Source: Halopiger djelfimassiliensis (lineage in GTDB: Archaea; Halobacteriota; Halobacteria; Halobacteriales; Natrialbaceae). Taken from it: a DNA stretch of 64,000 bases. The position numbers and the translations under genes were made by a program. The notes beneath the pieces were generated by a model that saw nothing but the letters and a program-made list of their open reading frames with translations, made no database searches and had not been told where the DNA came from. The stretch lies in contig NZ_HG315687.1 in assembly GCF_000455365.1 (NCBI RefSeq), positions 124,001 to 188,000 of the forward strand. Reading direction: 5' to 3'. Of this stretch, positions 23,339-38,853 are shown in pieces. Numbering within the stretch: position 1 is the first letter of the stretch; every line of letters starts with the position of its first letter.

Positions 23339-23572
23339 ATGTCCGAATCCGATGCCACGACGCGGCAGTACACCCGCGCTACCCGTCTCGTCCTCGCCTT
23401 ACGAACCCTGGCGTTTGCGTTGCTCGTCGTCGGATTCGGCGGCTGGCTGCTCGAGGACGGCGCGGTCGCTCTCGAGTCGCCGTTTACCGTCGCGTTTTTC
23501 GTCGGCACGGGATGTGCGTTCGCGTCGATCTATCTGGGGGTGGTTCTGGCTGATGGCGGGAGTGATCGATGA
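23339..23572 (+). CDS. small two-helix membrane protein
   Basis: A 77-residue protein with two hydrophobic helices, LRTLAFALLVVGFGGWLLE and FTVAFFVGTGCAFASIYLGV, joined by an acidic turn. It follows the 45-codon gene by four bases. Its stop overlaps an in-frame ATG (23569) that could be an alternative start of the aminopeptidase, which would make a three-gene unit. Confidence 0.6.
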   Translation: MSESDATTRQYTRATRLVLALRTLAFALLVVGFGGWLLEDGAVALESPFTVAFFVGTGCAFASIYLGVVLADGGSDR

Positions 23573-23652
23573 GCGAATCCGTTCGACAGTCGCTCGCGCT
23601 GTCGTATTTCGATTCGAAAATAGTTTCCCTCCGGTGGCAGAAATTGCCAGCT

Positions 23653-24735
23653 ATGGATCCACGCATCCGCGAACACGCCGAGATCATCGCCAGCCATTCG
23701 GTCGATCTGCAGGCGGGGGACAACGTCGTCATCGACGCCCATCCCGTCGCCGAGGATCTGGTCGTTGCGCTCCACGAAGTGGTCGGGGACTACGGCGCGA
23801 ACCCGCTCACGACGACCCAGCGTGCCGGCAAACGCCAGCGTCGTGCCTTCCTCCGCGCGGCCGACGGCGAGTTCGAAACCCCCGAGCACGAACTCGCGCT
23901 CATCGAACACACTGACGTCTACATCGCCATTCGGGCAAGCGACAACGTCACCCAGACAAGCGACGTCGATCCCGAAACCAGCGCGGCTTACCAGCAGGCA
24001 AAGCGCCCGATCCTCGAGGAGCGCCTCGGCAAGCGGTGGTGTCTCACCCAGTACCCTGCACCGGCGAACGCCCAGCTCGCCGAGCTGTCCACGGAGGTCT
24101 ACGAGAACTTCGTCTGGGACGCGGTCAACAAGGACTGGGAGGAACAGCGCGAACACCAGGCGAACATGGTCGAAATCCTCGATCCCGCCGAGGAAGTCCG
24201 GATCAAAAGCGGCGACACGACCGACGTGACGATGTCCGTCGACGGGAACCCGACGATCAACGACCACGGCGAGCACAACCTGCCGGGCGGCGAGGTCTTC
24301 ACCGCTCCCGAACCCGACAGCGTCGAGGGCGAGGTACTGTTCGATATGCCGCTGTACCATCAGGGACGGGAGATCACGGACGTCTACCTCGAGTTCGAGG
24401 GCGGCGAGGTCGTCCAGCACTCGGCGGCGAAAAACGAGGACGTCCTTACCGAGGTACTCAACACCGACGACGGCGCGCGCCGCCTCGGCGAACTGGGAAT
24501 CGGGATGAACCGCGACATCGACCGGTTCACCTACAACATGCTGTTCGACGAGAAGATGGGCGACACCGTCCACATGGCGGTCGGCCGGGCCTACGACGAC
24601 ACCGTCGGCGAGGGCAACGAGGCCAACGACTCCGCGGTCCACGTCGACATGATCGTCGACATGAGCGAGGATTCGTTCATCGAGGTCGACGGCGAACGGG
24701 TTCAGGAGGACGGAACGTTCGTCTTCGAGGAGTAG
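23653..24735 (+). CDS. M29-family (thermophilic-type) aminopeptidase
   Basis: A 360-residue M29 aminopeptidase starting MDPRIREHAEIIASHSVDLQ. The family's metal-site region is visible in the C-terminal half: VEGEVLFDMPLYHQGREITD, ELGIGMNRDIDRFTYNMLFDEK, GDTVHMAVGRAYDD and DSAVHVDMIVDM supply the Glu, His and Asp ligands expected for this family. I take the ATG at 23653 because homologues begin here. The upstream ATG at 23569 overlaps the preceding stop and is an alternative. The last seven codons and following 40 bp are duplicated just downstream. Confidence 0.9.
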   Translation: MDPRIREHAEIIASHSVDLQAGDNVVIDAHPVAEDLVVALHEVVGDYGANPLTTTQRAGKRQRRAFLRAADGEFETPEHELALIEHTDVYIAIRASDNVTQTSDVDPETSAAYQQAKRPILEERLGKRWCLTQYPAPANAQLAELSTEVYENFVWDAVNKDWEEQREHQANMVEILDPAEEVRIKSGDTTDVTMSVDGNPTINDHGEHNLPGGEVFTAPEPDSVEGEVLFDMPLYHQGREITDVYLEFEGGEVVQHSAAKNEDVLTEVLNTDDGARRLGELGIGMNRDIDRFTYNMLFDEKMGDTVHMAVGRAYDDTVGEGNEANDSAVHVDMIVDMSEDSFIEVDGERVQEDGTFVFEE

Positions 24736-24894
24736 CAACCGCGAGTGACGACGGGAACGAGCGGCTTTTTCATCGAAGTTTTTGCGCGAACGGTTGCCGA
24801 AGGCAACCTGAGCGGAAAAAGTTCGGAGTGGGACGTTCGTCTTCGAGGAGTAGCAACCGCGAGTGACGACGGGAACGAGCGGCTTTTTCATCGA
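24715..24894 (+). repeat. 62-bp perfect direct repeat containing a gene tail (118-bp offset)
   Basis: Bases 24715-24776 are identical to 24833-24894. The first copy covers the last six codons and the stop of the aminopeptidase plus 41 bp downstream. The second copy repeats the same codons (TFVFEE and stop) outside any gene. Divergence begins after the shared block. The stretch 24736-25269 has no supported gene otherwise. Confidence 0.95.
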
Positions 24895-24926
24895 CGTTTT
24901 CGCGTGGGCGGCCGTCGCCGACGGCC
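24792..24926 (+). terminator. two hairpins in equivalent positions of the repeat units
   Basis: Hairpin one has arms GGTTGCC (24792-24798) and GGCAACC (24802-24808) around GAA. Hairpin two has arms GGCCGTC (24910-24916) and GACGGCC (24920-24926) around GCC. They are exactly 118 bp apart, like the direct repeat, and three of seven pairs differ by compensating changes. T tracts precede each hairpin, and AAAAAGTTC follows the first. They may end transcription or mark mRNA 3' ends. Confidence 0.55.
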
Positions 24927-25269: not shown

Positions 25270-25464
25270 TCAGCCGTCCAAGAGCACCTTCGGCGGCAGC
25301 CGGCAGCCACAGGGACTGACGATTCCCTCCATCGGCCCGCGGATCGTGACCGTCGTCAGCGACCGGCCACAGAGCGGGCAGTTCGCGGGCGGCGTCGGGT
25401 GGGTCGACTCGAGCCGATTACCCGGCTCCGCGACGGACCGGTCGGCGGTTTCGGTTTCGTCCAT
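25270..25464 (-). CDS. small zinc-finger protein
   Basis: A protein of about 64 residues (from the ATG at 25464), with ANCPLCGRSLTTV and GIVSPCGCRLPPK. The CPLC and CGC pairs can bind one zinc ion, as in the many small zinc-finger proteins of haloarchaea. In-frame starts also exist at 25479 (ATG) and 25530 (GTG). I prefer 25464 because the residues before it are poor in acidic residues. The partner or target is unknown. Confidence 0.6.
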   Translation of the reverse strand: MDETETADRSVAEPGNRLESTHPTPPANCPLCGRSLTTVTIRGPMEGIVSPCGCRLPPKVLLDG

Positions 25465-25544
25465 CGGACTCACCACCATCGCGGCCAGTGGCCGCTCGAG
25501 CGCGCTGCTGTTCGGGAGAGGCTGTTCCACGGGCTTGCGGGACG

Positions 25545-25550
25545 TTTATA
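25545..25550 (+). promoter_or_regulatory. TATA-like box facing the structured element
   Basis: TTTATA on the plus strand, centred 25-26 bases before the A of ATG at 25573. This is the normal spacing between a haloarchaeal TATA box and a transcription start. Read on the minus strand it lies too close to the GTG at 25530 to serve that start. Confidence 0.45.
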
Positions 25551-25572
25551 TCCCGTCAGAATGTACGGAATC

Positions 25573-25668
25573 ATGCTTTCAAACCTCGGAGGGTTTGGAA
25601 GCCGCGTCTCGGGTGTCCTTGCACCCGGGGCATTTGTGTACCCCGATGGAGACGGGCTTCCATTCTGA
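25573..25668 (+). ncRNA. candidate structured RNA (three-way junction), strand uncertain
   Basis: This is a strongly self-complementary segment. A long stem pairs 25597-25603 with 25655-25661 and 25605-25610 with 25649-25654: 13 pairs with one bulged G. It closes two hairpins, 25611-25615 with 25622-25626 and 25627-25630 with 25641-25644. A further hairpin (25577-25585 with 25592-25600) shares bases with the long stem, so the two are mutually exclusive. A TATA-like box lies upstream and T-rich DNA downstream. A 31-codon frame, 25573-25668, also starts exactly where a leaderless message would. On the minus strand the same stems could be the end of an IS200/IS605-type element. No homology could be tested. 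The rest of 25531-25873 holds no gene. Confidence 0.45.
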
Positions 25669-25695
25669 TTGTTAATGTTATTTCACTTATACCTA

Positions 25696-25709
25696 CTGGA
25701 TCATTCCAG
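25696..25709. repeat. short hairpin near the structured element
   Basis: CTGGA (25696-25700) and TCCAG (25705-25709) pair around TCAT in AT-rich DNA, 35 bp beyond the structured element. It could be a terminator stem, or the other end of a small mobile element. Confidence 0.4.
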
Positions 25710-25873: not shown

Positions 25874-26536
25874 CTATTCGTCCTCCGCCCGGCTTTCGCG
25901 CTCGAACTGCGCGAAGAACTCCGCCATGACCTCCCGCCGGGACTCGCCGAGGCGGCGTCCGGGTGCCGTGTACAACGCGTCCAGCCGCTCCGTCGCCCAC
26001 TCCCGAAGGAGCGTGATGTCCGGACAGTCGGACGCCGCCATCCCGTGCCCCGACGGCCTGTCGAGCACCGCGTACCGTTCGCCTGCCCGTCCCGATCGCT
26101 CGCCGACGATACAGGCCAGCCGAACGATCCCGACCGCTCCGGTCGCTTCCAACTTGTCCGCGTCGAAGAGGAGTTTCGCCTCGAGGGTCTCCGGTTCCGG
26201 GGAGCGCGACCGAATACTGTGCGCTCGGATACAGCGTGTGACGGCCTCGATCCGGTCGGATGCGACCTCTTCGGCCTCGAGCAGTGTCGCCGCTTCCGTC
26301 GCGCCCCAGTCGTTGTGATCGTCGATCTCCCCCGTCCGCTCCCGCGGCCGCCCGATGTCGTGAAACCACGCCGCTGCGGAAAGGACGTCCCTCTCGACCG
26401 ATCCCTCGCACTCGCTTGCCAGCCGAAGCGACAACTCCCGGACCCGTTTGGCGTGGAACCGATCGTGTGCCGGGAGGGCATCGTCGTAGTACGGTCTCGA
26501 CAACTCTCGAGCAAGAGTCCCTAATTCCGAATCCAT
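25874..26536 (-). CDS. HD-domain phosphohydrolase
   Basis: A 220-residue HD-superfamily protein. HDRFHAKRVRELSLRLA supplies the first His, AAAWFHDIGRP is the HD pair (59-60), and LLFDADKLEATG holds the last Asp. These are the metal ligands of the superfamily. Members hydrolyse nucleotides or cyclic nucleotides, but the substrate here is not evident. Upstream of the ATG are a CTACCGGTAG palindrome (26554-26563) and an AT-rich stretch, suggesting its own promoter. Confidence 0.85.
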   Translation of the reverse strand: MDSELGTLARELSRPYYDDALPAHDRFHAKRVRELSLRLASECEGSVERDVLSAAAWFHDIGRPRERTGEIDDHNDWGATEAATLLEAEEVASDRIEAVTRCIRAHSIRSRSPEPETLEAKLLFDADKLEATGAVGIVRLACIVGERSGRAGERYAVLDRPSGHGMAASDCPDITLLREWATERLDALYTAPGRRLGESRREVMAEFFAQFERESRAEDE

Positions 26537-38659: not shown

Positions 38660-38853
38660 TCGACTCGAGGATCGGACTCACCGCTCTTTAACGTGATGAC
38701 CAACATTTCAATAGTGTGTGATTATGGAGAACGGTAGAAACGTGTTTCTCGAGGGAGCTGTCGCACGAATAACTCGAGACTTCGAATAGCTGTTGGATAT
38801 CGATGACGAGTTTTCGACCGAAAGCGCGATCGATCGCGGCGGGCGTCGGCGGG

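Follow-up and report, generated by a model that had tools for sequence, protein, structure and literature searches.

A structured element at the start of a coupled gene pair

The window, a 64,000-nucleotide stretch of the Halopiger djelfimassiliensis genome, carries a compact structured element at positions 25545-25709. On the minus strand, an invariant CAT (plus-strand letters, 25572-25574) is the ATG start of a short open reading frame (ORF), which overlaps by 4 nt the GTG start, at 25473, of a gene for a small zinc-ribbon protein (25479 and 25464 are alternative possible starts). The structured core begins just past this CAT and ends with the 3' strand of its longest-range stem. The features of the locus, each with the evidence on which it was placed, are the following.

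25270-25473, minus strand: gene for a small zinc-ribbon protein (CPLCG...PCGC); ORF, matching genes and overlap statistics
25470-25574, minus strand: short ORF MIPYILTGYKRPASPWNSLSRTAARSSGHWPRWW from the invariant ATG; ORF and conservation
25538-25555, no strand assigned: palindrome CGGGACGTTTATATCCCG around the TTTATA box; alignment of 18 copies
25545-25550, plus strand: TTTATA, putative TATA box of the plus-strand RNA; logo of 171 copies
25575-25661, plus strand: core of a predicted antisense RNA resembling phiH T(ant); covariation, mapped phiH T(ant) start and 18 genome copies
25575-25585 with 25592-25602, plus strand: P1 hairpin (fold A); fold, covariation and tip changes in close orthologues
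25597-25610 with 25649-25661, no strand assigned: P4 long-range stem (fold B); fold, covariation and wobbles
25606-25631, plus strand: P2 hairpin; alignments, pair counts and covariation of upper and lower stem
25616-25621, plus strand: hypervariable 6-nt loop, proposed kissing-loop address; loop diversity and rate relative to the scaffold
25627-25644, no strand assigned: P3 hairpin, GGGG (25627-25630) with CCCC (25641-25644); fold, covariation and wobbles
25686-25699, minus strand: TATA region (CCAGTAGGTATAAG on the minus strand), putative leader/mRNA promoter; fixed spacing

Folding recovered the architecture of the original prediction, that is, a long stem, two hairpins within it and a competing hairpin upstream. 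For 25545-25709, the folding energy of the plus strand is -57.9 kcal/mol (z -3.6), and none of 200 shuffles reached the value of either strand (z -4.3 for the minus strand). P2 consists of GTCTCGGGTG (25606-25615), the loop TCCTTG (25616-25621) and CACCCGGGGC (25622-25631), and P4 encloses both P2 and P3. The two folds compete for one strand, GGAAGCC (25597-25603), which forms P1 when paired with 25575-25580 and P4 when paired with 25656-25661, the two pairings being mutually exclusive. Throughout Natrialbaceae the order of the parts is the invariant CAT, the 5' strand GGCUUC, the variable tip, GGAAGCC, P2, P3 and the 3' strand GGCUUCC, the tip of P1 being hypervariable. The 3' end of the predicted plus-strand RNA may lie beyond 25661. 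The short hairpin at 25696-25709, which had been proposed to mark the far end of a mobile element, is not conserved in the alignment of the other 17 copies of the same genome and is probably incidental.

A multi-copy family in haloarchaea and their viruses

The structure is confirmed and recurs, with about 20 copies in its own genome, where a DNA search detects 18 (E 1.2e-81 to 2.4e-8) and a covariance model 20. Homologous copies in relatives show compensating changes that preserve both exclusive folds. Among the Natrialbaceae sampled, 83 of 125 species carry the element, some of them in 25-31 copies or more (at least 31 matches at the top); the carriers belong to Natrinema, Natrialba, Halovivax, Halostagnicola, Natronorubrum, Natronobiforma, Natrarchaeobius and Halopiger, with Haloparvum as the one outlier. 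Across the 392 Halobacteria genomes sampled, at least 39 from outside Natrialbaceae contain matches, mainly one weak match each, and the copy counts outside Natrialbaceae depend on the search filters used. One genus of another haloarchaeal family (g83) is multi-copy, with 11-20 matches, and several haloviruses carry the element too. Rfam covariance models gave no match on the element, in searches that covered the window and 15 related loci, and no description of this RNA family was found in the open PMC literature, to which that search was limited.

Two exclusive folds covary

When a broad alignment was folded automatically, only P2 was recovered. The strands of P4 lie one column off between families, which is why consensus folding misses it, and we therefore tested pairing by comparing the energies of cognate and non-cognate duplexes in 19 representatives, against 10,000 shuffles. 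Cognate duplexes were better than 10,000 of 10,000 shuffles for P1 (z -6.1), P4 (z -8.2), the lower part of P2 (z -6.0) and its upper part (z -7.3). The signal of P3 was weaker (z -2.5; 77/10,000 shuffles), and the control pairing of the 5' with the 3' strand gave none (z -0.1). Since the cognate duplexes of P1 and P4 beat every shuffle while the control gave nothing, both exclusive folds are kept by selection. The two alternative folds that had been predicted do not reflect chance: P1 and P4 each covary from one haloarchaeal lineage to another. The second multi-copy genus has GGGUU, GGGAACCC and GUUCCC as its 5', middle and 3' strands, and the three sequences differ again in further lineages.

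Wobbles that leave a pair intact on one strand only are distributed according to the helix. Those pairing on the minus strand only prevail over those pairing on the plus strand only in P4 (82 vs 3) and P3 (54 vs 19), whereas the plus strand is favoured in the lower part of P2 (310 vs 1) and in P1 (29 vs 4); many of the wobbles counted are inherited and not independent. This helix-dependent split is an indirect sign, but it fits what would be expected of two complementary RNAs that are both functional.

A loop that evolves faster than its scaffold

The P2 loop is hypervariable relative to the scaffold that carries it: 117 distinct sequences occur in the 181 copies with a recognisable P2 core, and wherever the loop is readable its length is 6 or 7 nt (118 and 60 copies, respectively; 3 are unreadable). 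For copy pairs whose scaffolds are at least 92% identical, 49% of the loop positions differ, compared with 5.3% of the scaffold positions, a ratio of about 9.3. Indeed, the near-identical elements L251 and L261 have the loops CGCCAA and TTTGTGG, and L127 and L145, with flanks that are 91-97% identical, have TCCTAT and TTGTAG. Rapid loop change has arisen twice independently, in Natrialbaceae and in the second family. No position-specific complement of the loop was found within 700 nt upstream or 600 nt downstream, and loop-loop pairing among paralogues showed no excess over the level between genomes. Complementarity of the two strands in cis does not depend on the loop sequence, which would leave the loop free to diversify, and the variability of the loop suggests that it is probably a kissing-loop address that separates paralogues.

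Other roles for these parts were considered and dropped. A pseudoknot involving the loop was ruled out by the lack of a fixed-position complement nearby. Mimicry of an anticodon loop by the 7-nt loops was rejected, the 6-nt loops being commoner and C nearly as frequent as T at position 2, as was a stand-alone small RNA acting in trans through a C-rich seed, for there is no fixed loop complement nearby and each copy has a promoter and an ORF on the opposite strand.

Coupled reading frames on the minus strand

In Natrialbaceae the short ORF typically encodes 33-50 amino acids, and its tenth residue is lysine in 160 of 163 copies. At the 119 Natrialbaceae copies for which a distinct zinc-finger ORF was assigned, the end of the short ORF and the beginning of the zinc-finger ORF share exactly 4 nt in 76 cases, and in 113 the distance from stop to start is between -12 and +6 nt. 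Of 183 copies, 104 have a divergent zinc-ribbon gene of the window type upstream, in each case on the minus strand, and the remaining copies mostly have other types of cysteine-rich protein. For about ten copies of the own genome a zinc-finger gene could not be recognised; since parts of some genomes are masked, this absence is partly uncertain for loci L009-L018. In relatives with a single copy, CAT also starts a minus-strand gene, often for a zinc-binding protein, and SWIM and winged-helix domains were found at such loci. The window-type proteins are acidic zinc ribbons. Neither Pfam nor NCBIfam gave a match above cut-off for the zinc-finger types or for a 184-aa partner, and PADLOC returned nothing for the proteins associated with the element.

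The idea that the zinc-finger gene is merely a divergent partner was dropped once the invariant CAT was recognised as a start codon. We also discarded a translated plus-strand ORF ('ATGGCTTC'), the frame of which is broken by length changes in the loop and in P1.

Promoter-like boxes on both strands

The TTTATA box that the original prediction had noted as promoter-like was located at 25545-25550, and the logo of 171 copies places TTTAT 26 nt from CAT. This box overlaps the Tyr-Lys codons of the minus-strand short ORF, and for that reason its conservation could be partly coding. The palindrome around it covaries, reading CGAGAC...GTCTCG in a second subgroup of the 18-copy alignment. Readings of the palindromic box as promoter alone, and then as coding alone, were both revised, since phiH shows that such a box can be promoter and coding sequence at once.

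On the other side, the tract 3' of the element had been described as T-rich DNA, a description that overlooks what it contains: a conserved TATA box of the minus strand (CTTATA on the plus strand, from 25686), which in 141 of 144 copies is separated from the structure by 23-25 nt.

Haloviruses share the layout

Among the antisense RNAs of archaea, T(ant) of the halovirus phiH was one of the earliest to be reported. The phiH1 record gives mapped starts for the lytic transcript T1 (38582) and for the antisense T(ant) (38732) next to an ATG at 38733; T(ant) starts one base ahead of that ATG and extends across the entire T1 leader. In phiH1 a CxxC gene overlaps the first gene by 4 nt (39260/39263), and this first gene has a lysine at position 10, as the short ORFs do. 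Antisense control in the T1/T(ant) pair goes back to Stolt and Zillig 1993, as cited in PMC6210493 and PMC4284463, and T(ant)-dependent cleavage of T1 is described in the review PMC4284463.

In BJ1, Humcor1, Harhisp1, SNJ2 and the IMG/VR contig L228, the element lies at the start codon of a gene opposite a phiH1-like winged-helix regulator; the divergent regulator is present in BJ1, Harhisp1, SNJ2, L228 and the single-copy relatives, and in Humcor1 a similar frame is unannotated. In the single-copy relatives, the protein encoded across the minus-strand promoter is a small winged-helix protein related to the phiH1-like repressors found in haloviruses. At four of these relatives (L255, L256, L258 and L263), palindromic repeats flank the leader promoter and are possible operators of the winged-helix regulator. 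The window copy has no winged-helix regulator gene beyond its leader promoter, and window-type copies lack an adjoining repressor gene.

The covariance model R2 matches L228 (1.3e-9), Humcor1 (4e-4), Harhisp1 (8e-4) and SNJ2 (2e-3), and gives no match in phiH. Because the model does not recognise phiH, the likeness to phiH is one of layout. In the five viruses alone, P4 complementarity is weaker (440/5000). The phiH-type traits seen in the window sequence are CAT followed by G/T, a TATA-like box 26 nt upstream, a promoter at the far end and a cysteine-rich gene with a 4-nt overlap; this layout, together with the weaker complementarity, suggests that the window module is of the phiH type. As in phiH (and also phiCh1), the predicted antisense RNA would start beside the start codon and span the entire leader, the CxxC gene is coupled, the 5', middle and 3' strands are mutually complementary and, in the viral members, a divergent regulator gene lies on the other side. 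Unlike phiH, the window copy belongs to a chromosomal set of about 20, has no adjoining repressor gene and goes with other controlled genes, and its family has a hypervariable P2 loop of 6-7 nt and no direct sequence match to the virus.

Discussion

We consider it likely, from comparative sequence evidence, that the element is a control module in which a cis-antisense RNA resembling phiH T(ant) acts on a leader, and that this module has been multiplied at chromosomal sites in Natrialbaceae. The original prediction, in which a small RNA or leader of the plus strand alternates between two folds, survives in large part, given the covariation and the mapped T(ant) start of phiH; what it missed is the gene on the minus strand to which the covered leader belongs, the family of about 20 copies and the hypervariable loop.

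In the antisense model, the minus-strand TATA box at about 25686-25693 would start an mRNA with a structured leader of about 90-110 nt that ends at the start codon of the short ORF, which would be coupled by the 4-nt overlap to the small zinc-finger gene. From a plus-strand promoter embedded in the beginning of the short ORF, a small RNA would be produced that starts at the base beside the start codon and spans the leader completely, and the two RNAs would fold into the same hairpins. First contact would probably be made by the 6-7 nt P2 loops, followed by zipping to a full duplex that could block translation of the short ORF, and hence of the coupled zinc-finger ORF, and/or invite cleavage as for phiH T1. 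The conserved strands would let both RNAs rearrange between the folds. With 10-30 near-identical scaffolds in one cell, differing loops would be favoured, preventing cross-silencing of paralogues. Transcription of both strands, kissing, duplex-dependent block or cleavage, orthogonality as the reason for loop diversity, and a zinc-finger product as the controlled function are what we would predict for these copies.

Could the minus-strand leader act alone? A riboswitch-like 5' UTR would alternate between P4/P3, with the start codon free, and P1, with a hairpin beside it, in response to an ion, a metabolite or a protein such as the zinc-finger product. The conservation of alternative folds, the minus-strand preference of wobbles in P4 and P3, the start codon immediately after P1 and a zinc-binding product that suggests feedback all agree with such a switch. 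Against it stand the opposite wobble preferences of lower P2 and P1 (310 vs 1 and 29 vs 4), the far higher rate of change in the loop than around it, which would not be expected of a ligand-binding leader, and the mapped antisense start of phiH at exactly the corresponding place, and we regard a leader of this kind as unlikely. More room is left for a type I toxin-antitoxin-like arrangement with the layout of hok/mok/sok, although it is doubtful too; it is a sub-reading of the antisense model and not an alternative to it. Here the coupled short and zinc-finger ORFs would be the toxin unit and the plus-strand RNA a labile antitoxin, as the 4-nt coupling in most copies, the multi-copy intergenic spread and the small product without a known family might suggest, but the products are acidic zinc ribbons and not hydrophobic peptides, and the controlled gene of the viruses encodes a PadR-like or other protein.

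It is also tempting to speculate that the chromosomal RNAs act in trans, on the leaders of incoming viruses or plasmids that share the scaffold. Natrialbaceae would then hold a bank of virus-derived antisense RNAs with one scaffold and diversifying loops, an RNA-only immunity against early lytic leaders that works without CRISPR-like spacers. Viruses of the same hosts do share the scaffold and have similar loops (TCTCCAG in SNJ2, TGCCAG in Humcor1), the L region of phiH confers immunity, and loops diversify even between close orthologues. Yet a minus-strand promoter and an ORF are retained at every copy, although an RNA serving defence alone could do without them, and shared 6-nt loops are common by chance, so that we think such a repertoire improbable. 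The other proposal made for the locus, the end or guide-RNA scaffold of an IS200/IS605 element that has lost tnpB, draws on the hairpins being multi-copy and now deserves almost no credence: no ORF resembling tnpA or tnpB was noticed beside the 18 own-genome copies, no transposase-like gene is among the recurrent neighbours of 177 copies, the minus strand has a start codon and coupled ORFs, the same element occupies the immunity region of haloviruses, and covariation and the viral layout account for the structure.

The preferred antisense module has analogues among known antisense systems. FinP/traJ, CopA/CopT and RNAI/RNAII are plasmid systems in which an antisense RNA acts on a structured leader and short loops set allele specificity. 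The present element is alike in pairing a predicted antisense RNA with a structured leader and in its exposed variable loops; unlike them, it is archaeal, chromosomal and multi-copy, with no tie to plasmid replication or transfer and no sequence relation. In hok/mok/sok, a leading short ORF is coupled to a small gene, and the antisense RNA covers the region upstream of the leading ORF. Both the coupling and the placement of the antisense RNA are similar here, whereas the product is a zinc finger and there is no sequence relation. The one-domain zinc finger micro-proteins of Haloferax volcanii (PMC6562870), which are likewise small, haloarchaeal and of the CPxCG type, have not been described with an antisense RNA element, and no family match between them and the window protein was found.

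Antisense RNA in archaea is a topic that is still not fully explored (PMC6210493). If the module works as proposed, the kind of RNA represented by phiH T(ant) would gain a family of hundreds, along with a two-state structure that is conserved and a feature that clearly sets specificity, and the phiH-type design would recur in unrelated haloviruses and be multiplied on chromosomes. Moreover, a loop that changes at about nine times the rate of its scaffold makes the evolution of orthogonal antisense pairs directly testable, and the family could offer ready-made orthogonal RNA switches for haloarchaea. It would also provide a regulatory setting for many small zinc-finger proteins that are functionally uncharacterised.

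Other genes and repeats near the copies

Clustering of the neighbours of 177 copies identified zinc-finger genes and, less often, eCIS-core genes as recurrent. Genes related to a strong Pfam eCIS-core match (PF13699) adjoin at least 13 copies (L103-L118 of the Natronobiforma-type genome G015, and L009-L011 of the own genome); in G015, at least 8 copies are followed by an eCIS-core-related gene within about 100-400 nt. In the multi-copy genus g83, paralogous proteins of 175-184 aa (MTLPVFQFWDRLGESVN..., with a WCRPC motif) are encoded opposite many copies (L254, L259, L262, L268 and L273-L298), a family for which Pfam, NCBIfam and PADLOC gave no match. At L009-L018 of the own genome, mostly one subgroup, conservation extends for about 300 nt upstream; no zinc-finger gene could be recognised there, and the stretch may contain another gene or RNA. 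In the window itself, a direct repeat of about 55-60 bp (cttcgaggagtagcaaccgcgagtgacgacgggaacgagcggctttttcatcga) occupies 24724-24895, 3' of the gene at 23569-24735, and on the minus strand, downstream of the element, the ORF at 25874-26536 encodes 220 aa that include an HD-type motif (WFHDIG).
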